From a virus, in IMG/VR virus record IMGVR_UViG_3300042384_000945, positions 1 to 39,256 of that record: a stretch of 39,256 nt of DNA; one strand, given 5' to 3'. The position numbers and the translations under genes were made by a program. Below are positions 6,059 to 23,656 of this stretch, piece after piece (the stretch's first letter is position 1; every line of letters begins with the position of its first letter). Under the pieces are notes generated by a model that was not told where the DNA came from, did not search any database, and saw nothing but the letters and a program-made list of their open reading frames with translations.

Positions 6059-9000
6059 TCAACCATTTAGTAATTTATCCAATTCTTTTTCAATTAACCC
6101 CAACGAATTACGTCCTTTAGATAAATCAATAAAATCATCAGCCTCTAAATCATTACTCTCAACTAATATATTATAATTTGATTTCTCAACACTATCCATC
6201 AAAGGTGCTTCACCCCCACTTGGTGGTGGTGGTGGTATATCACCCATTCCTCCTCCTTCTGCAGGTGGTGGAGGTGGCATTCCTCCTTCTGCTGGTGGTG
6301 CTGTTGTGGTATCACCACTTGCTGTTTTGTATAATTTGTCAACAATATCAAACATACCAGTGTGTGTTATAATTGTCGGTGTATTTGTTAATTCCGCAGC
6401 AACAGCTCTCTCCAATCTAATTTGTTGAATTTCAAGTTTAATATCTTCATCAGAGAATCCAAAGATATGTTTTTTAGCCCAGGTTGCTGATGTTGGTTGT
6501 AATGTATTTGGTATTTCACTAACTAAATCTTTATATAATAATACTTTTTCTTTCCAAACTGAAACCATTAATAAATCGGCTTGTTTTGAAGGGTTTGTTA
6601 ATCCTAACGTAAAGTTATTTAACTCATCCTCAAAACCTAATATAAATAAATGGATAATTGCAATTTTATTTAATTCGGCAATCATACTTTTTTGAATCTT
6701 ATTGATTGTTCGTGCGAACCTAATATCCATTAAAGACAAATTGTCGCCACTACCAACAGGTTCCTCAAATCCTAAAAATGCTTTTGGTATTCTTAATGCT
6801 GTTAGTAGTTTCTTTTGTATGTACTCAATATCCGCAATTTCTGATAGGTTTTGAGCACCAGGTAATGTCTCAATTGGCATTGTTTGTCCTGGATCTCGTA
6901 CTGGGATAAAATAATCTTGATCAACCGCCATTTGATTGTATCTCATATCCACATTTCCTGTTTTACTATCAACAACTTGGTCTCGTTTGAATTTATTCGC
7001 AACACGTTGTACGTAAGGTTCAACGTCCTTATCATCCATATTTCCAACAAATACTTTAAATACTCTTCGTTCTGGTGCTCGTGACGTTCTGTAAATTAAC
7101 ATAGCGTCTTCCGCTAGTACTAACTGTTTCCAAACACGACGTGCTTTCTCTAACATTGATGTACCATAAGGTAATTTTCTATCATCACCAAGTAGTCTAA
7201 AATGTGCCATTTCCCACGTATTAAACTCCATATCTTTGGTTTTCCAGACAAACCTTAACCCTTTACTGTTTACATCGGATGGGGTGGGGGAACTAACAAC
7301 AGCATTCATTGTTCTTACCGACATACCTCTTTCTAATCGTTCAATTTCAATATTAGGTAGTTGTAAACAACCAGTAATCCCTTTTTCTTCGTCTAATTTT
7401 AGGTATACGAAATTATCGCCATACTTACAGTTGGACAAAAACACACCTGATTCTCTAGAGTATTCACCATTTAAGTTAAAACCACAAACCGGAAAATTAT
7501 GTCTATCGTGTTCTCCATTTGGACCAACTGCTTCTAAACAATAAACATCTGACGTTTCGTTTAGTTTAACAACTGAAACAACTTTGTGATTAATAATTTT
7601 TACTTTAGTTTTTCCCTCAAAGATTGACCTCGCTTTAATATATTTTTTATCTAAAATAATTTCTGGTTTAATATTGGAAACAAAATCAAAATAATTTTTA
7701 TTTGTTTTTCTTAAAATGACTTTTTTTAAGGTTGTCGCATTAATTGATTTTGTAATATCTTTATTTAATGTATAGTTTTGTTTAAATAGTTTGATAAACT
7801 CACTATCAGATTTAAGAATATTTGATAATTCGTATATACCAATATAAGTTTCACTGTTTTTAATTACTGTGGAAATATAGGACAAACAATTATCATTTAT
7901 TTCAATCGTCATCCCCTTTTTTGTTTTTTCTATAAAATTATTATCTCTCCAGTTATTTAACATTTTATTTGAACGAATTATATTGTGTTCAGTATGTAAT
8001 TCACTATTGTTATATTTCTCAAAATATTTATTATAGATACCAGTCATTTCTTTGGATAATCTTTGTTTCCGTTTCTCAGAACGCAAATATCTATCAATAC
8101 CATCCATTCTTTTCTTAACAACTTCTGGTGAACCTAAAATCTTAATAAAATGTTCCGAGTGTAGTTTAAAATGATCCGAATGTTTCATTCTATCCAAATT
8201 TTTTGGATGATTATTTAGTTTATTGAAATCAACGTGATGTGTGTCAAATTGTTCACCAATTGTTTTTTCATTATCTAAATCTCTCACACATATATGTGAA
8301 ACCATCGTATGTGTAAATTTATATTTTCCTGTACTTGGGTTAAATACCTTTTCATACCCAGCAATTCGGTCTTTTTTCTTTTCACTTTTTTTAGTATAAA
8401 ACGGCATTAAAGATTGACCTTTGGTTAACTTATCGGCTCGTTTAAATGATCCGTCTCTAAGCATATATTCGTGATCTGGTGTTGTATCAATGTATGTACC
8501 ATCATCCAGAGTAACTCTATAGAGTTCACTATTTTTCCTAGTTAAATCACACCATATAATTTTACTAGGTACAATTACTTTCGTTCCATCTTGTATTGAA
8601 TAAGACCAAACATCCTCACCATTCTTAACCCTATCACTTAATTCTTTTATCGTTACTTCTGTACCATCTAATAATGGTATCATACAATTCTCTCTAATTG
8701 GTGTGTTTCTAATCCACATTGGTAGATTGATATTAATATCTAAAATGTTATTAAATAAATCGGCCAAAATTGATTTAATTCTTTTTGACTCTGAATATAT
8801 TTGTAAAACATAACCATCTTGATTAGGGGTTGTTGATTCTTCTGAATAGATATCTAATGCCGTTGATATTTCCGGCATAAATTCCATCGATTCGTAATCA
8901 TAAAAAGCGGCAATTCGGTTTGGTTCATAATATACCGCTTGGGCGTATAAGTTGTTTTCTATTTTTTGCCATTGATTACTTAAAAATAAACTTTGTTGAT

Positions 9001-9154
9001 ATTCTAATTTTTCTTTATCGTATTGTGCTTTATCTGTTGTTTTTAATAAAACATTTTTATCCAATGTTACTGACGCTTGATCCATACCCAAAAGAGAGTT
9101 TGGTCCAAATGTTTTGGATAGTTTTTGCCATATCGTTAGATTTTGTTTTTCCAT
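6059..9154 (-). CDS. 20: Portal vertex protein, T4 gp20-like, with in-frame intein
   Basis: Forms the dodecameric ring through which DNA is packaged and to which the neck attaches. 1031 residues as encoded; removal of the 419-residue intein (157-575) leaves 612, near the size of T4 gp20 (524) plus a tail. The N-extein contains YYEPNRIAAFYDYESM and PEISTALDIYSEES; the C-extein starts CKYGDNFVYLKL and continues with RAPERRVFKVFVGNM, PYVQRVANKFKRD and a lipid-free helical region typical of gp20. The last ~70 residues include an unusual Pro/Gly-rich linker (MPPPPPAEGG, DIPPPPPSGG), absent from T4. ATG at 9154 behind an A-rich leader and a TATTTAT element. Order gp17-...-gp20-...-gp21-gp22-gp23 supports the assignment. 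Confidence 0.9.
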   Translation of the reverse strand: MEKQNLTIWQKLSKTFGPNSLLGMDQASVTLDKNVLLKTTDKAQYDKEKLEYQQSLFLSNQWQKIENNLYAQAVYYEPNRIAAFYDYESMEFMPEISTALDIYSEESTTPNQDGYVLQIYSESKRIKSILADLFNNILDININLPMWIRNTPIRENCMIPLLDGTEVTIKELSDRVKNGEDVWSYSIQDGTKVIVPSKIIWCDLTRKNSELYRVTLDDGTYIDTTPDHEYMLRDGSFKRADKLTKGQSLMPFYTKKSEKKKDRIAGYEKVFNPSTGKYKFTHTMVSHICVRDLDNEKTIGEQFDTHHVDFNKLNNHPKNLDRMKHSDHFKLHSEHFIKILGSPEVVKKRMDGIDRYLRSEKRKQRLSKEMTGIYNKYFEKYNNSELHTEHNIIRSNKMLNNWRDNNFIEKTKKGMTIEINDNCLSYISTVIKNSETYIGIYELSNILKSDSEFIKLFKQNYTLNKDITKSINATTLKKVILRKTNKNYFDFVSNIKPEIILDKKYIKARSIFEGKTKVKIINHKVVSVVKLNETSDVYCLEAVGPNGEHDRHNFPVCGFNLNGEYSRESGVFLSNCKYGDNFVYLKLDEEKGITGCLQLPNIEIERLERGMSVRTMNAVVSSPTPSDVNSKGLRFVWKTKDMEFNTWEMAHFRLLGDDRKLPYGTSMLEKARRVWKQLVLAEDAMLIYRTSRAPERRVFKVFVGNMDDKDVEPYVQRVANKFKRDQVVDSKTGNVDMRYNQMAVDQDYFIPVRDPGQTMPIETLPGAQNLSEIADIEYIQKKLLTALRIPKAFLGFEEPVGSGDNLSLMDIRFARTINKIQKSMIAELNKIAIIHLFILGFEDELNNFTLGLTNPSKQADLLMVSVWKEKVLLYKDLVSEIPNTLQPTSATWAKKHIFGFSDEDIKLEIQQIRLERAVAAELTNTPTIITHTGMFDIVDKLYKTASGDTTTAPPAEGGMPPPPPAEGGGMGDIPPPPPSGGEAPLMDSVEKSNYNILVESNDLEADDFIDLSKGRNSLGLIEKELDKLLNG
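7430..8686 (-). mobile_element. Intein with HNH homing endonuclease domain in the portal gene
   Basis: Self-splicing element from Cys157 to Asn575 of the portal precursor. Block A: CMIPLLDGTEVTIKEL. Block B: TTPDHEYMLRDG, with the TxxH-type His. The middle carries an HNH-like segment, THHVDFNKLNNHPKNLDRM followed by KHSDHFKLHSEH. Block F: SDVYCLEAVGPNGEHDRHNF. Block G: SGVFLSN then Cys+1. The penultimate residue is Ser rather than the usual His, and about a dozen residues (GFNLNGEYSRES) separate blocks F and G. The open frame through 1257 nt and intact Cys1, Asn and Cys+1 argue that it splices. Confidence 0.87.
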
Positions 9155-18592: not shown

Positions 18593-18961
18593 TTATTTTA
18601 AAGTGTTAATCTTGTCTCTTATCTCTATCGCCCTTTCAAAATCTTGTGTTTTAATACAATTATTAAGTTCATTATTGAGTTCGTTTATTATTTCCACATT
18701 TTCCTCAAGATTTTTAATCTTATCTCTCAGAACAACAGCATCCTCAAATTTTTGTTCCTCAACAGCCAAATCTAATTTTTGTTTTAATCGTGATAATTCA
18801 TCTGATTCATTTTGTCTACTACCTTTGGTTGTAATATATGTAAATGACATACTACCATCCTCTGATAGGTAGGTTTTTTTTTCAAAATTATTAGGGTTTA
18901 ATAAAAAACTCTTAGATAAAATTTGATTAAATAATTTTTCAAAATCTTCGTTACCAAGCAT
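18593..18961 (-). CDS. UVR-motif protein, candidate ClpC adaptor (McsA-like C-terminus)
   Basis: 122 residues. Residues ~57-88 (RLKQKLDLAVEEQKFEDAVV then LRDKIKNLEE) and ~97-122 (ELNNCIKTQDFERAIEIRDK) are two UVR motifs, the helical-hairpin module found in UvrB/UvrC, ClpC and the ClpC activator McsA. The N-terminal half (short helix and a strand hairpin DGSMSFTYITTKG) lacks the zinc-finger Cys residues of McsA. It is transcribed divergently from the split ClpC gene across a 159-bp intergenic region with paired palindromes, which supports a functional link: an adaptor that binds ClpC. Alternative: an unrelated coiled coil. Confidence 0.75.
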   Translation of the reverse strand: MLGNEDFEKLFNQILSKSFLLNPNNFEKKTYLSEDGSMSFTYITTKGSRQNESDELSRLKQKLDLAVEEQKFEDAVVLRDKIKNLEENVEIINELNNELNNCIKTQDFERAIEIRDKINTLK

Positions 18962-19023
18962 ATTATTATTTTTTTAAGTTTATTTTCTTTTTTATTGACC
19001 AATTTTATACCACAATAAAAAAC

Positions 19024-19069
19024 TGACACTTTGTCAGGTTTAATTATAATTGAATATGACAAAGTGTCA
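19024..19069. promoter_or_regulatory. Paired palindromes in the UVR / ClpC divergent promoter region
   Basis: TGACACTTTGTCA at 19024-19036 and its exact reverse complement TGACAAAGTGTCA at 19057-19069. Each is itself a near-palindrome, TGACA-N3-TGTCA. Centre-to-centre spacing is 33 bp, about three helical turns. The layout fits an operator for a dimeric regulator controlling both genes. Confidence 0.6.
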
Positions 19070-19120
19070 ACAGTTGACAATAACATTTAATATTACTAAC
19101 ATTAGATAAAACTTTTAAAT

Positions 19121-19411
19121 ATGGCAATAGAATTCGCAGATGAAAATGAAAAAAACAAAAAGAAAGAAACTAATTCTGGAACACCAGTTTTAGATAATTT
19201 CAGTAAAGATTTAATTAAGTTAGCCGAACAAGGTAAATTAGACCCTGTTATTGGTAGAGAACAAGAAATACTACGTATTGCACAAATTTTATCCAGAAGA
19301 AAAAAGAATAATCCTATTATAATCGGCGAACCTGGATGTGTTTTAGAGGATACTTGGATTGAAGTTGAAAAAATTTCTGATGTTAATACACATAATATTG
19401 AAACAATGTGA
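19121..19411 (+). CDS. clpC: ClpC-type AAA+ ATPase, N-terminal part fused to a short N-intein
   Basis: 96 residues. Residues 1-72 are the start of a ClpC/ClpA-family D1 domain without the usual Clp-N repeat domain: [40 protein letters not shown], then NPIIIGEPG, which stops inside the Walker A motif. Residues 73-96 ([14 protein letters not shown]...ETM, stop TGA at 19409) are an intein block A. The rest of the ATPase, with the rest of Walker A, is encoded from 20623. Trans-splicing of the two products would rebuild GEPG-CGKT. The ORF ends cleanly and no frameshift repairs the break. No clear promoter beyond the palindromes; TTGACA at 19074 is a weak candidate -33. Confidence 0.85.
19337..19408 (+). 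mobile_element. N-terminal fragment of an atypically split intein (24 residues)
   Basis: Begins at Cys1 immediately after GEPG of the Walker A motif; [13 protein letters not shown] is a typical block A. The fragment ends after only 24 residues. This length is like the known atypically split AceL-TerL class, not the ~100-residue N-fragments of common split inteins. Confidence 0.82.
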
Positions 19412-19418
19412 TATTTAT
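19412..19418 (+). promoter_or_regulatory. TATTTAT element for the free-standing endonuclease
   Basis: GATATTTATTATTAG begins right after the TGA of the ClpC N-part and lies 36 nt before the ATG at 19455. Confidence 0.5.
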
Positions 19419-19454
19419 TATTAGGGTTTGGTATATCCCAAGTCCTGTTATACT

Positions 19455-20633
19455 ATGTTAATTAAGAAAAGAAGTGTGGTAATTGCGGATATTTTAACCG
19501 TTAATGATTTTGAAAAGTTCATCATTGATTTAAATTTATATAAATTTTTTATTAAATTTAATTCTATAGATAAACCTAAGATTGAAGATCTAATTAGTAA
19601 GACACCAACAATAGGTATTAAAAAAGTTAAACCGATATTAAAAAGTATCTTAAACTACCCTAATTCAATATATAATAAAGATTTTTTACTTTCTATGGGT
19701 TGGGAACTTAATGATATTGAGAAATTTATAAGTGATAAACAAAAAAAGAACAGTCAGGTATTGGTTAATGAGAAACGAAATAACCCGGAAAAATTTAAAA
19801 ATAGTTACACAAATAGGATTGAGTATTGGTTAAATAAAGGTTATTCTGATGTTGACGCTAGTCAAAAACTAAAAGACAGGCAAAGTACTTTTAGTTTTTC
19901 TAAATGTATTGAAAAATACGGTGAAGATATTGGTAAAGAGATGTTTAATAAAAGACAACAAAAATGGATAACAACTTTAAAATCTAAAGAAACTTATGGT
20001 GAAATACAAAAAACTAAAAATATATTTAAGTATGATATTAAAGATAAAGAAACTTTATTCAAATTTGCAAACTACTCAGAAAAAACAATGGGTGTAATAA
20101 CAAAATGTTCTGGTAAAAGTGATATTAAAGACTTTGTTGATTGTATTATTGTTAATGATGATATAAAAAGGTATTCTGATCTTTTACCATATATAAATAG
20201 TAGTGTTATTCATAATGTGTTTAATATCTCACATAGTGAGATTAAAGATATTTTTTATAAAAAAATAGATTTAAATCAAAATAGACAATATTATGGTATT
20301 GTCGTCTATCATAATGGTATTAGGTACAAGAGTGTCGGTGAATATAGAATTGCATTATATCTTGAATCAAAAAATATTAACTTTATATACGAGAAAACAT
20401 ACCCAAATAGCAATTTAAAATCAGATTTCTATTTAGTTGATAACGACTTATATATTGAGTACTATGGTTTATTAAATAAAAAAAACTTAGATAAGTTAGA
20501 CACTACTTTGTCAAAGTATTACGAAAAAGTTAAAATAAAAAACAAATTTTGTATGGATAATGAATTAAATTTAATTTATGATTTTGATTACAAAGAATTA
20601 ATTACTAAAATAAAAAATTACTATGAAAATTAA
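19455..20633 (+). CDS. Free-standing homing endonuclease, PD-(D/E)XK-like
   Basis: 392 residues from the ATG at 19455; an in-frame TTG at 19428 is less likely. It sits exactly between the two halves of the broken ClpC gene. The C-terminal ~110 residues look like a restriction-endonuclease fold: GIRYKSVGEYRIALYLESKN (alpha helix with Glu), then LKSDFYLVDNDLYIEYYG, with the Asp and the Glu of a D-(x)n-E-x-x pattern, and a KYYEKVKIKNKFC helix. The middle region has the DNA-binding-like module YWLNKGYSDVDASQKL then SKCIEKYGEDIGKEMFNKRQ, often found in phage homing endonucleases. The last 11 nt overlap the start of the downstream ClpC C-part. It probably spreads the fractured allele by cutting intact clpC. 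Confidence 0.75.
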   Translation: MLIKKRSVVIADILTVNDFEKFIIDLNLYKFFIKFNSIDKPKIEDLISKTPTIGIKKVKPILKSILNYPNSIYNKDFLLSMGWELNDIEKFISDKQKKNSQVLVNEKRNNPEKFKNSYTNRIEYWLNKGYSDVDASQKLKDRQSTFSFSKCIEKYGEDIGKEMFNKRQQKWITTLKSKETYGEIQKTKNIFKYDIKDKETLFKFANYSEKTMGVITKCSGKSDIKDFVDCIIVNDDIKRYSDLLPYINSSVIHNVFNISHSEIKDIFYKKIDLNQNRQYYGIVVYHNGIRYKSVGEYRIALYLESKNINFIYEKTYPNSNLKSDFYLVDNDLYIEYYGLLNKKNLDKLDTTLSKYYEKVKIKNKFCMDNELNLIYDFDYKELITKIKNYYEN

Positions 20634-21021
20634 AATTAAAGATTTCTTCAACTTAGTTGAAAATGAAGGTGGTACATATAAGGTTAAAACACCTTCTGGG
20701 TTTAAATTAATTGGTAACCTATACAAAAAACTAAATAAAAATTGTTATGAAATAAAATTATCAAATGGTTATTCACTTTCTGGTTCTGAAGATCATTTAG
20801 TTGAGGTTGCTGAAACGACGTTAAATGAAACTGCCGAGTATGTAAATAACTCGTTTTGGGTTAAATTAAAGAATATAAATATTGGTGATTTTATTTATTG
20901 TGATGATAACAATTTATATTCTATTATTGAAAAAACTGACATTGGGGTACATAACACGTATGATTTAGAAGTTTTGGATAATGAAAGAAAATATTTAACG
21001 AATAACATTATTTCACATAAT
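20623..21021 (+). mobile_element. C-terminal fragment of the split intein (133 residues)
   Basis: Runs from the ATG at 20623 to Asn133, with the canonical ending SHN and Cys+1. Has the block B His (SEDH) and the block F Asp-Leu pair. No endonuclease domain is present inside; it is encoded separately upstream. Confidence 0.85.
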
Positions 21022-22875
21022 TGCGGTAAAACAGCCATTGCCGAAGGTTTAGCAATGATGATTCATAAAGGTGAATGTCCTAAAAATTTAGCAGATAAGA
21101 AAATAGTTTCGTTAGATATTAATTCAATTGTTGCCGGTACAAAATATAGAGGTCAGTTTGAAGAACGAATGAAGGTTATTATTGAAGAATTACAAAGTAA
21201 CCCAAATATTATAATATTCATTGATGAGATACACACAATGGTTGGCGCTGGTAATAGTTCGGGATCTTTGGACGCTTCAAATATCTTTAAACCAGCATTG
21301 TCTAGGGGTGAGATTCAGTGTATTGGTGCGACAACATTAGATGAATACAGAAAACACTTTGAGAAAGATGGTGCTTTAGAACGTAGATTCCAAAAAGTTA
21401 TCGTGGATCCATCAACAAAGGAAGAAACATTCCAGATTTTAAAATTAAGTAAGGATAAATACCAAGAACATCACAAGGTAAATTACACTGACGAAGCGTT
21501 ATTATTATGTGTTGAATTAGCTGACCGTTATATTACTGATCGTGAATTTCCAGATAAAGCATTTGATATTTTAGATGAGGTTGGTTCAAGAATGCAGATT
21601 GATATTAAATTACCAGAACATATTGAACAATTAAAGCAAGATGCAATTGACATTAAACAAGAAAAAGCCGAAGTTATTAAAAAACAAAAATATGAATTGG
21701 CGGCAGAACTTCGTGATCGTGAAAAACATATTTTACTTAAATTAGAAGATGAGAAACAAAAGTTTGATGATGATCTTAAAAACAATAAACGTGGTATCCC
21801 AGAAGACTTGATATACGAAGTTGTTTCAAATATGACAAAAATACCGATTAGTAAAATTAATATTGATGAAAAAAATTCATTGATTAATTTAGAGGATACA
21901 TTAAATAGTCGTGTTATTGGTCAAGATGTTGCCGTTAAAAAAATCTCAAAAGCAATTAGAAGAAATAGAGTTGGTATTAAAGACCCAAATAAACCATTAG
22001 GTAGTTTCATATTGTTAGGAAGTACTGGTGTTGGTAAGTCATTTTTAGCAAAACAATTAGCGAAAGAACTATTTGGTAGTGAAGATAGTTTAATTAGAAT
22101 TGATATGTCTGAATATCAAGAAAAACATACAATATCAAGACTAATAGGTTCACCTCCTGGTTATGTTGGTCACGAAGAAGGGGGTCAATTAACAGAACAA
22201 GTTAAAAATAAACCATATTCTGTTATTTTATTTGATGAGGTTGAGAAAGCACATAAAGACATATTCTCAACTTTACTACAAGTTCTTGATGATGGTCACT
22301 TAACGGATGCTTTAGGTAGAAAAATTAACTTTAAAAATTGTTTAATTATTATGACATCAAATATTGGTGCTAGAAAATTACAAGATTTTGGTTCAGGTGT
22401 TGGATTTAAAACAACTAATAATAGCGACACAATCCAAGACGAACTTAGACGAGAAGTTCTGAAAAAAGAAATGAGTAAATTTTTCGCACCTGAATTTTTA
22501 AACAGAATTGACGATGTTATTGTTTTTAATCCCTTGAAGAAAGACGATATAAATAAAATTGTTAAACTTGAAGTTGACAAACTTATCAGTCGTCTTCAGA
22601 ATATGAAATATACCGTAACATATGAAGATTCAGTAATTGAATATATATCAAAAGTTGGTTTTGACGAACAGTATGGTGCTAGACCTATTAAAAGAGCAAT
22701 CCAAGATAAAATAGAAGATTTGATTTCAGAAAAAATATTAACAAATGAAGTAACAGAAGAAAAAGACTATATGTTATTTGTTAAAGGTGAAGGTGATGAT
22801 CAAATAATAGAAATAGAAGAGAGGATTACATTAGAACCAAAGAAAAAAGGTGGTAGAAAGAAAAAGGAGGATTAA
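20623..22875 (+). CDS. clpC: C-terminal intein fragment fused to the bulk of ClpC ATPase
   Basis: 750 residues. Residues 1-133 are the C-intein: VKTPSGFKLIGN, block B GYSLSGSEDHLVEV, block F TYDLEVLDN and block G NNIISHN followed by Cys134 (+1). From Cys134 the extein reads CGKTAIAEGLAMMI, completing Walker A. D1 Walker B IIIFIDEIH (~197-204), sensor region IGATTLDEYR. A short middle region (340-372, KYELAAELRDREK) resembles the ClpC UVR-type M-domain. D2: Walker A GSTGVGKS (466-473), Walker B VILFDEVEKAH, and the loop GSGVGFKT (591-597) holding the VGF tripeptide that docks ClpP in ClpC/ClpA. The spliced product would be 689 residues. ATG overlaps the endonuclease stop codon region, suggesting translational coupling. 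Confidence 0.9.
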   Translation: MKIKIKDFFNLVENEGGTYKVKTPSGFKLIGNLYKKLNKNCYEIKLSNGYSLSGSEDHLVEVAETTLNETAEYVNNSFWVKLKNINIGDFIYCDDNNLYSIIEKTDIGVHNTYDLEVLDNERKYLTNNIISHNCGKTAIAEGLAMMIHKGECPKNLADKKIVSLDINSIVAGTKYRGQFEERMKVIIEELQSNPNIIIFIDEIHTMVGAGNSSGSLDASNIFKPALSRGEIQCIGATTLDEYRKHFEKDGALERRFQKVIVDPSTKEETFQILKLSKDKYQEHHKVNYTDEALLLCVELADRYITDREFPDKAFDILDEVGSRMQIDIKLPEHIEQLKQDAIDIKQEKAEVIKKQKYELAAELRDREKHILLKLEDEKQKFDDDLKNNKRGIPEDLIYEVVSNMTKIPISKINIDEKNSLINLEDTLNSRVIGQDVAVKKISKAIRRNRVGIKDPNKPLGSFILLGSTGVGKSFLAKQLAKELFGSEDSLIRIDMSEYQEKHTISRLIGSPPGYVGHEEGGQLTEQVKNKPYSVILFDEVEKAHKDIFSTLLQVLDDGHLTDALGRKINFKNCLIIMTSNIGARKLQDFGSGVGFKTTNNSDTIQDELRREVLKKEMSKFFAPEFLNRIDDVIVFNPLKKDDINKIVKLEVDKLISRLQNMKYTVTYEDSVIEYISKVGFDEQYGARPIKRAIQDKIEDLISEKILTNEVTEEKDYMLFVKGEGDDQIIEIEERITLEPKKKGGRKKKED

Positions 22876-22888
22876 ATCCCCCTTTTTC
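22861..22888. terminator. Bidirectional terminator between ClpC and the OmpA-like gene
   Basis: AAAAAGGAGG and CCCCCTTTTT arms around ATTAAAT; overlaps the ClpC stop codon and serves the convergent gene ending at 22895. Confidence 0.85.
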
Positions 22889-22894
22889 TTTATT

Positions 22895-23656
22895 TTAAAT
22901 TGTTTTTTTAGAAATACCCATTTTAACTAAATCATATTGATTTTTAAATTGACGTATTAATTTGACATATTGAGATTCAAGACCTTTAGGTATTGTAACA
23001 CAAATCTTTAAATCGTATTTTACGGTTGGGTCAAGAGGATCTGGATCAATTCCACCACCACCGCTATTTTTCGGATATATTGTTCTATCTCTGGTTGTGT
23101 TGTCACCAACCTCACCTTTTATTTGTAAGTTTAATTTTTGTGGTACTGAAACCTCAACAGAAACATATTGTTCTTTCATAGCAGCATCGCTATTTTTAGT
23201 TGTTTCTTGACCTTCTTTAACAGTACCTGGTATAAGATTTAAACTTTTACTATTAAAAGTTTGTCTAAGATAGTTAATTAGATTATCTCGTCTTCGTGTT
23301 GCCAACGCTATGTTGTCATAGTTATCCGATTTACCCACAGCTGACGCACCACCATTTACCGTTACATCAATTTTACCAGTATTTGTTGCTAATAAATTCT
23401 TAATTAATTCGGAAATTTCTTTTATTTTTGGGTCGTTAGGATTAATCTTGTCAATACCATTTGAGAATGTGTTTTTCCCACTTGATTTTATTGGTATTGT
23501 CATAGGAATACCATTAGGGTATCTTGTTTTTAACCAAGTAATTGAATCCATATCGCCACTACCACCACCTAAAGCCTCAACTATTGGTTTAACATTTCCC
23601 AATTCTGATTCTAATAATCTATTAAATTTTTGTTTATAAACGTTAATATTTTTCAT
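22895..23656 (-). CDS. OmpA-C-like domain protein, possible virion protein
   Basis: 253 residues. N-terminal leader MKNINVYKQKFNRLLESELG has LLE|S, a gp21-type site. Residues ~75-165 resemble an OmpA/MotB peptidoglycan-binding fold: IDVTVNGGASAVG (first strand), NIALATRRRDNLINYLRQTF (the long helix with the RxxxxxxxL pattern), then strands ending VSVEVSVP. The C-terminus has a Gly/Asp/Pro linker (GGGGIDPDPLDP). No signal peptide, so it is more likely part of the virion (cell-wall contact) than a secreted host-type protein. TATTTAT 14 nt upstream. Confidence 0.65.
   Translation of the reverse strand: MKNINVYKQKFNRLLESELGNVKPIVEALGGGSGDMDSITWLKTRYPNGIPMTIPIKSSGKNTFSNGIDKINPNDPKIKEISELIKNLLATNTGKIDVTVNGGASAVGKSDNYDNIALATRRRDNLINYLRQTFNSKSLNLIPGTVKEGQETTKNSDAAMKEQYVSVEVSVPQKLNLQIKGEVGDNTTRDRTIYPKNSGGGGIDPDPLDPTVKYDLKICVTIPKGLESQYVKLIRQFKNQYDLVKMGISKKTI

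Follow-up and report, generated by a model that had tools for sequence, protein, structure and literature searches.

A candidate split intein and a free-standing endonuclease-like gene interrupt the Walker A codons of a phage ClpC-type unfoldase gene

Organization of the Locus

The DNA analyzed here, hereafter called the window, is the complete IMG/VR virus record IMGVR_UViG_3300042384_000945 (39,256 bases), which carries T4-type portal, terminase, and head protease genes. At positions 19121-22875 both the table of open reading frames (ORFs) and the raw sequence contain three tandem ORFs on the plus strand: the N-half of a ClpC-type ATPase, a middle ORF, and the C-half of the ATPase (Table 1). 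The 96-residue N-half consists of 72 host protein (extein) residues and a 24-residue N-intein. The middle ORF has 392 residues (401 if the TTG at 19428 is used). The 750-residue C-half, which shares 11 nucleotides with the end of the middle ORF, starts with a C-intein of 133 residues ending in IISHN and continues with 617 ClpC residues, the first of which (residue 134) is the Cys of CGKTAIAEGL. The predicted spliced product thus has 72 + 617 = 689 residues and the Walker A motif GEPGCGKT. A first-pass annotation made from the letters alone had described the stop of the frame of the first AAA+ ring (D1) after GEPG and a 24-residue peptide, the 392-residue ORF between the halves, the C-half boundary SHN↓C (arrows mark the break), and a predicted 689-residue product, all of which were found again; its statement that the P-loop is whole only after ligation agrees with the sequence, the Walker A motif being broken at GEPG↓CGKT.

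ClpB/ClpA-type models match N-half residues 3-73, and the Pfam models AAA, AAA_lid_9, AAA_2, and ClpB_D2-small match the C-half, which gives two AAA+ modules of the Clp kind, D1 having a whole Walker A motif only after joining. ClpC proteins are distinguished from ClpA and ClpB by a UVR-type middle stretch and a ClpP-docking VGF loop. The name ClpC is used here because the C-half has a weak UVR-like middle stretch (E 0.0035, below cut-off) and a VGF loop, seen by eye in GSGVGFKT; its best NCBIfam model is ClpB, below the cut-off of that model and ahead of ClpA. The Clp N-domain, a usual though not indispensable part of ClpC, is absent, as the N-half begins about 20 residues before D1 and matches no Pfam model; in the relative L142 (such handles denote individual loci) about 190 residues precede D1 and were taken by eye for an N-domain. 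The GC content of the endonuclease-like gene (0.227) and the C-intein (0.25) compares with 0.304 for the C-extein.

The splitting of ClpC by an intein-like insert is real and neither chance nor a one-off assembly error. A second IMG/VR record (296,330 bases; possibly from the same sample) is 100% identical to the window over 12,250 bases, and the layout of the locus recurs in other phages, their endonucleases being 43-61% identical. An assembly artefact was rejected on the strength of this second record and of the divergent alleles with the same layout.

Table 1. Positions of the ORFs and features discussed, in window coordinates
Feature	Position	Strand	Description and basis
ClpC N-half	19121..19411	+	
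N-extein	19121..19336	+	First ClpC-type ATPase residues, to GEPG of the D1 Walker A; no N-domain; model matches and uninterrupted homologue L004
N-intein	19337..19411	+	24 residues (block A) and a stop codon; split site like that of AceL-TerL
Free-standing homing-endonuclease-like gene	19455..20633	+	Middle ORF, from ATG; putative PD-(D/E)xK/Vsr-like C-terminal domain at about residues 277-392; phrog_7140 and structure matches
ClpC C-half	20623..22875	+	
C-intein	20623..21021	+	Ends in YLTNNIISHN
C-extein	21022..22875	+	617 residues plus stop: Cys +1, rest of D1, UVR-like middle stretch, whole second ring (D2)
Divergent promoter-like region upstream of N-half	19023..19102		Two TGACA-N3-TGTCA palindromes 33 nucleotides apart; minus-strand TTGACA-16-TATAAT; assigned from consensus matches only
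UVR-motif protein gene	18593..18961	-	PF02151
Portal gp20 gene	6059..9154	-	PF07230; contiguous intein

Evidence for an Intein

Class 1 split inteins have Cys or Ser at position 1, a block B His, a terminal His-Asn, and Cys, Ser, or Thr at position +1. In the C-intein of the window, SEDH, YDLEV, and SHN are blocks B, F, and G, respectively. Cys1, His58, Asp114, His132, and Asn133, and likewise the Cys at +1, are conserved in all ten distinct alleles occupied at the break found in the window (site a), a count made without L203, which was found later, and L126, which is cut by a contig end. Atypically split inteins have N-fragments (Int-N) of 15-37 residues, and that of AceL-TerL has 25 residues and is split after helix alpha1 (PMC13014065). 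The 24 residues of the window lie inside this range, close to the AceL-TerL-type length that had been proposed for them.

Single-sequence comparisons give low scores. TIGR01445 (intein_Nterm) matches the C-intein alone from profile position 16 (E 0.0011, 19.9 bits) and the joined N- and C-intein from profile position 1 (22.4 bits; cut-off 24.5). The matches of PF14890 (E 0.0021-0.0027) and Hint (about 0.005) are below cut-off. Several results speak against an intein: none of the single-sequence intein matches of the window halves or the joined intein passes a curated cut-off, PF14890 scores worse once the intein halves are joined (E 0.0087 vs. 0.0021), and phmmer against PDB sequences gives E 0.01-0.02 with or without the N-intein. 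The 96-residue N-half alone has no intein match in Pfam or NCBIfam. Two relatives, L010 and L013, pass the cut-off of TIGR01443 (intein_Cterm), a model that has no match in the C-intein of the window.

When a profile is built solely from four ClpC C-inteins, its matches among PDB sequences are gp41-1 (5e-7), VidaL (3.6e-5), and CatC (0.01); with D2-site, PhoH, and TerL inteins added it finds gp41-1 at 1e-16 and VidaL at 3e-16. The AlphaFold model of the C-intein, modelled by itself without the N-intein, has a predicted local distance difference test score (pLDDT) of 85.9; a Foldseek search with it gives VidaL as the best match (E 1.4e-8, template modelling score 0.75 on the query length), followed by gp41-1 and other inteins, with 46 matches at E<=0.001. 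Judged by profile and model, the C-intein is a HINT domain. The intein identity is secure because of this profile and structure comparison, the single-sequence scores being weak. The profile search of both halves proposed in the first-pass annotation succeeded for the C-intein, at the level of family profile and structure, and failed for the N-half.

The Middle ORF

The middle ORF has no Pfam or NCBIfam match and matches phrog_7140, labelled intron encoded nuclease, with E 0.0014. Its model (pLDDT 76.6; predicted template modelling score 0.34) has a C-terminal alpha-beta domain that resembles the homing endonuclease I-Bth0305I. This enzyme is ranked first by VIA (Z 9.1 over 90 residues, 3.6 A; Vsr 8.2), and Vsr is Foldseek rank 9 (prob 0.75). 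Other comparisons count against this assignment. In Foldseek the top match is a mitoribosomal chain (E 0.26, prob 0.47) and I-Bth0305I comes only second (E 0.36, prob 0.99), and VIA places two mitoribosomal chains (8.6 and 8.4), NGO0050 (8.4), and VRR_NUC (8.2) between I-Bth0305I and Vsr. The six site-a endonucleases also lack a His that L012, L142 (in both copies), and L020 have; its catalytic role was judged by eye, the aligned rows being divergent. Because of the mixed VIA ranking, the fold is best called nuclease-like, with several candidates for its closest kin. EDxHD homing endonucleases have a catalytic His in this motif, and since the His seen in the relatives is missing at site a the catalytic set is uncertain; all six site-a copies have Glu296, and each of the ten aligned rows has Asp324 and Glu335. 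T7 endonuclease I, the sole match of a PDB profile search with the middle ORF (E 0.81), was not used as evidence.

In 71 of the 80 loci examined with the endonuclease profile (best 80 of 144), a C-intein match (profile A1) lies at most 4 kb downstream on the same strand. Ten C-halves, chosen from endonuclease-profile and other loci, have Pfam matches to clamp loader, AAA, DnaB helicase (two), SbcC/Rad50-like (two), T4-type terminase (two), RecA, and PhoH proteins; the PhoH half (L020) comes from the C-intein search of annotated phages, and in L161 a DnaB half is situated upstream of the endonuclease match. A further endonuclease-like ORF lies right downstream of the occupied clpC in L013 (7312-8241, plus strand), a place where the window has no such ORF.

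Empty Alleles and Mobility of the Element

Intact clpC genes in related phages, for which a survey had been suggested, exist. L004 has an uninterrupted clpC with 99% (72 residues) and 98% (617 residues) identity to the exteins of the window, and its junction is exactly GEPG↓CGKT, with zero extra bases. For site-a occupancy and the ClpC tree, 113 ClpC rows (some sharing a contig) were reduced to 84 distinct rows. Seventy-four of these are empty at site a, with Cys (42), Ala (30), or Ser (2) at +1; the occupied rows comprise six with an endonuclease-sized gap, among them L102 with its frameshift, and four without an endonuclease, and all ten have Cys at +1 (Fisher p 0.011; rows not independent). 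Occupancy is scattered on the ClpC tree, a quick one, which requires at least eight occupancy changes, six of them forced by well-supported (starred) branches. As few changes arise in 31-32 of 500 label shuffles, which counts against the main reading; the label is thus clustered only weakly, as would be expected of an element that moves.

In 60-nucleotide steps, L010 and L012 share 97-100% identity across their C-inteins, 78-95% over the first 480 nucleotides of extein that follow, and 65-85% over the next 500 nucleotides. As the identity of the C-intein exceeds that of the flanking extein, the sequences suggest a recent transfer or conversion. No relative of the window C-intein was found in bacteria among 358 pattern matches from one genome per species (84,980 species), a scan that reaches close relatives only.

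Loss of the Endonuclease, Selection, and Alternative Explanations

The endonuclease has been lost and the split retained in four of the ten distinct occupied alleles, namely L010, L012, L103 (extein rows identical in L108 and L113), and L109 (identical in L110-L112). A C-terminal endonuclease remnant of about 30 residues is left in L010 and L012. In all four the stop of the N-fragment and the own ATG of the C-half remain, with 27-124 nucleotides between the fragments, stop codon counted. It is conceivable that the endonuclease gene simply broke clpC and that the halves are decaying or dead, their intein-like ends no longer splicing, and the frameshifted endonuclease of L102 would agree with this. 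We nevertheless regard it as very improbable, since the splice residues are conserved and the N-intein, C-intein, and examined extein parts are free of stops in all ten distinct alleles and appear to be under purifying selection. In pairwise comparisons of these alleles (45 pairs), the ratio of non-synonymous to synonymous differences (pN/pS) ranges over 0.00-0.50 in the C-intein, 0.03-0.72 in the N-intein, and 0.01-0.36 in the extein parts, and the C-intein ratio is 0.14 even between L103 and L109, which both lack the endonuclease. Among five open copies of the endonuclease the range is 0.43-0.64, leaving out L102 (9 codons before the first stop; ratios 0.23-0.81). Most pairs are close to saturation at synonymous sites, which weakens the case for selection; the values are rough because of this and because the N-intein has 24 codons. 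The persistence of the split without an endonuclease may merely mean that precise re-fusion is rare, though the contiguous D2 intein of L215 shows unsplit forms.

The halves might also function together unligated, held by non-covalent contacts, and the C-half alone does hold the whole D2 ring. This has a still smaller probability, as 24 + 133 foreign residues would break the D1 P-loop and the conserved intein splice residues would lack a purpose. A self-splicing RNA intron that lies in the gap and carries an endonuclease gene of its own would fit the frequent occurrence of free-standing endonucleases in introns and the label of phrog_7140, but its probability is negligible, given that no Rfam intron family matches up to E 1 over 18900-22900, that the protein-level intein ends fit exactly, and that so few nucleotides separate the fragments of the endonuclease-less alleles. 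The same Rfam search gave three sub-threshold small RNA matches near 22825-22900, taken as chance.

Proposed Mechanism

We hold it to be very probable that a split intein, accompanied by a homing endonuclease encoded in a free-standing gene, invaded the D1 Walker A codons of a phage gene for a ClpC-type (Hsp100) unfoldase, and that trans-splicing restores ClpC. That the locus combines a split intein with a separate endonuclease-like gene, as first proposed, is supported by sequence, profile, structural, and comparative evidence alike. In the proposed scheme the three ORFs would be read from a single strand and the 24-residue N-intein would associate with the 133-residue C-intein; acyl shifts by Cys1 and Cys+1 and cyclization of Asn133, aided by His132, would then yield the full-length ClpC with an intact P-loop. 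The endonuclease would cut uninterrupted clpC alleles at the conserved site in co-infecting phages, and repair would copy the cassette in. The splicing reaction, the DNA cutting, and the activity of the product are expected by analogy with intein and homing biology.

A regulatory role of the break seems unlikely to us. In such a case the split Walker A motif would act as a post-translational gate, with no ATP use by D1 (or by either ring in doubly fractured proteins) before two to three products have trans-spliced, and selection would keep the endonuclease-less split because ClpC is delayed or dosed.

Recurrent Fracture of ClpC and Other Host Genes

With each contig represented by a single locus, the ClpC site could be classified in 151 contigs; this figure excludes loci with too little ClpC to classify, among them L016, L126, L209, and L214. 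Both places tested are empty in 82 contigs, 66 are occupied, and 3 were seen at one place and are empty there. Clustered at 95% identity over 3 kb, the occupied contigs form 42 groups, and all but one of these clusters (41) contain one or more splits. Within this one protein family the breaks fall at three Walker A positions. Site a, at GEPG↓C in D1 as in the window, is occupied in 11 clusters; site c lies in D1 as well, typically at GEPGVGK↓T, and site b in D2, typically at G(S/P)TGVGK↓T. A scan with D2-site C-inteins yielded 53 loci. Both rings are split in five of the 42 occupied clusters: at a and b in L012 and L203, and at c and b in L211, L216, and L227. L227, which shares its contig with L142, has an endonuclease between the N-fragment and a middle fragment and another between the middle fragment and the C-fragment. 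The D2 intein of L215 is contiguous within one open frame. Another, different contiguous intein of about 364 residues, LAGLIDADG-looking and with an Ala start (both by eye), occupies site c in L205-L207, which also have a split at b. Identical 32-residue D2 N-intein fragments occur in the ClpC genes of diverged phages (L012 6396-6515 and L186 3311-3430), and this identity suggests a recent transfer of the D2 element.

The site counts are uninformative on prevalence because the loci come mostly from intein or endonuclease queries; with a ClpC-only query, site a is occupied in 2 of 80 loci (L065 and L092; best 80 of 568). The C-half has matches in 168 records of an annotated phage collection, of which one reaches 60-80% identity and none exceeds it; the C-intein has matches in four. 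One annotated phage genome of 462 kb (LR756500.1; L020 1587-4849) has a phoH-like gene fractured at the P-loop, KAG↓C ... SHN↓TGKT, and its halves are separated by a related endonuclease. The C-intein matches also include contiguous terminase inteins of Vibrio phages (L021).

Relation to Known Systems

Dassa et al. reportedly described fractured genes in 2009, with split intein halves at the break and a free-standing Vsr-like endonuclease gene in between. The present locus likewise has two gene halves, intein halves at the break, and a free-standing endonuclease-like gene between them; it and its relatives differ from those genes in the ClpC-type unfoldase host, the 24-residue N-intein, the split alleles without an endonuclease, and the fracture of both rings in some relatives. 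We read the locus as a fractured gene of this type whose split site is AceL-like and for whose host protein we could find no published case. Among the matches listed in the open-access literature there is no intein in a Clp ATPase, in keeping with the first-pass annotation, which knew of none; the only Clp inteins found in that literature are in ClpP, the protease subunit (PMC5784728).

The inteins gp41-1, which is canonically split, and VidaL (PDB 6qaz and 6vgv) are the nearest solved structures to the C-intein by both sequence profile and fold. The N-fragment of VidaL has 16 residues, unlike that of the window, and AceL-TerL and GOS-TerL share with the window an N-fragment of about 25 residues, the split after helix alpha1 (S2), and Cys dependence (PMC13014065); they differ in their terminase host, and the likeness is at the profile level only (engineered CatC, E 0.01). 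The nuclease folds that best match the C-terminal domain of the middle ORF are I-Bth0305I (PDB 3r3p) and Vsr (1cw0 and 1vsr), although identity to I-Bth0305I is 18-21% in alignments and the His of the relatives is missing at site a. The fractured PolB of the jumbo phage MIJ3 is similar in having a putative split intein with an endonuclease ORF between the halves, but it concerns an HNH endonuclease and a polymerase gene, with blocks A, N2, B, and N4 described in the N-terminal region, which is therefore longer than 24 residues (PMC6892783).

With the present locus an AAA+ protein unfoldase joins the genes fractured by phage split inteins. The empty, full, frameshifted-endonuclease, endonuclease-less yet split, contiguous, and doubly split alleles form a natural series for tracing what becomes of fractured genes. 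Since a doubly fractured ClpC contains two different inteins within a single protein, it would naturally provide split-intein pairs for which cross-reaction must be avoided, and would allow trans-splicing to be examined as an ATPase gate.

Neighboring Genes

The phage has a second, unsplit intein in its T4-like portal protein gp20, contiguous at residues 159-542 (PF14890 E 2.4e-16) and with an HNH endonuclease match (phrog_7545). Divergent from the adjoining clpC is a gene for a UVR-motif protein (PF02151 E 1.3e-16) that looks McsA-like by eye, and a similar gene, again by eye, adjoins clpC in L012 and L013. In L005 an Hsp20-like gene (by eye) lies just upstream of clpC. ClpP is encoded in 2 of the 10 records searched, several others being short fragments: the 296-kb record containing the stretch of the window (L009 record, G001:68265-68786) and the L005 record (G003:114993-115517). 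A phage ClpCP protease is possible, since the 296-kb record with the same stretch encodes ClpP.

Promoter-like matches in the region between clpC and the divergent gene show no excess (26 vs. 28.1 in shuffles). Its palindromes are absent from 6 of 12 loci checked and occur as variants with the same spacing in L004, and the pair is a possible operator.

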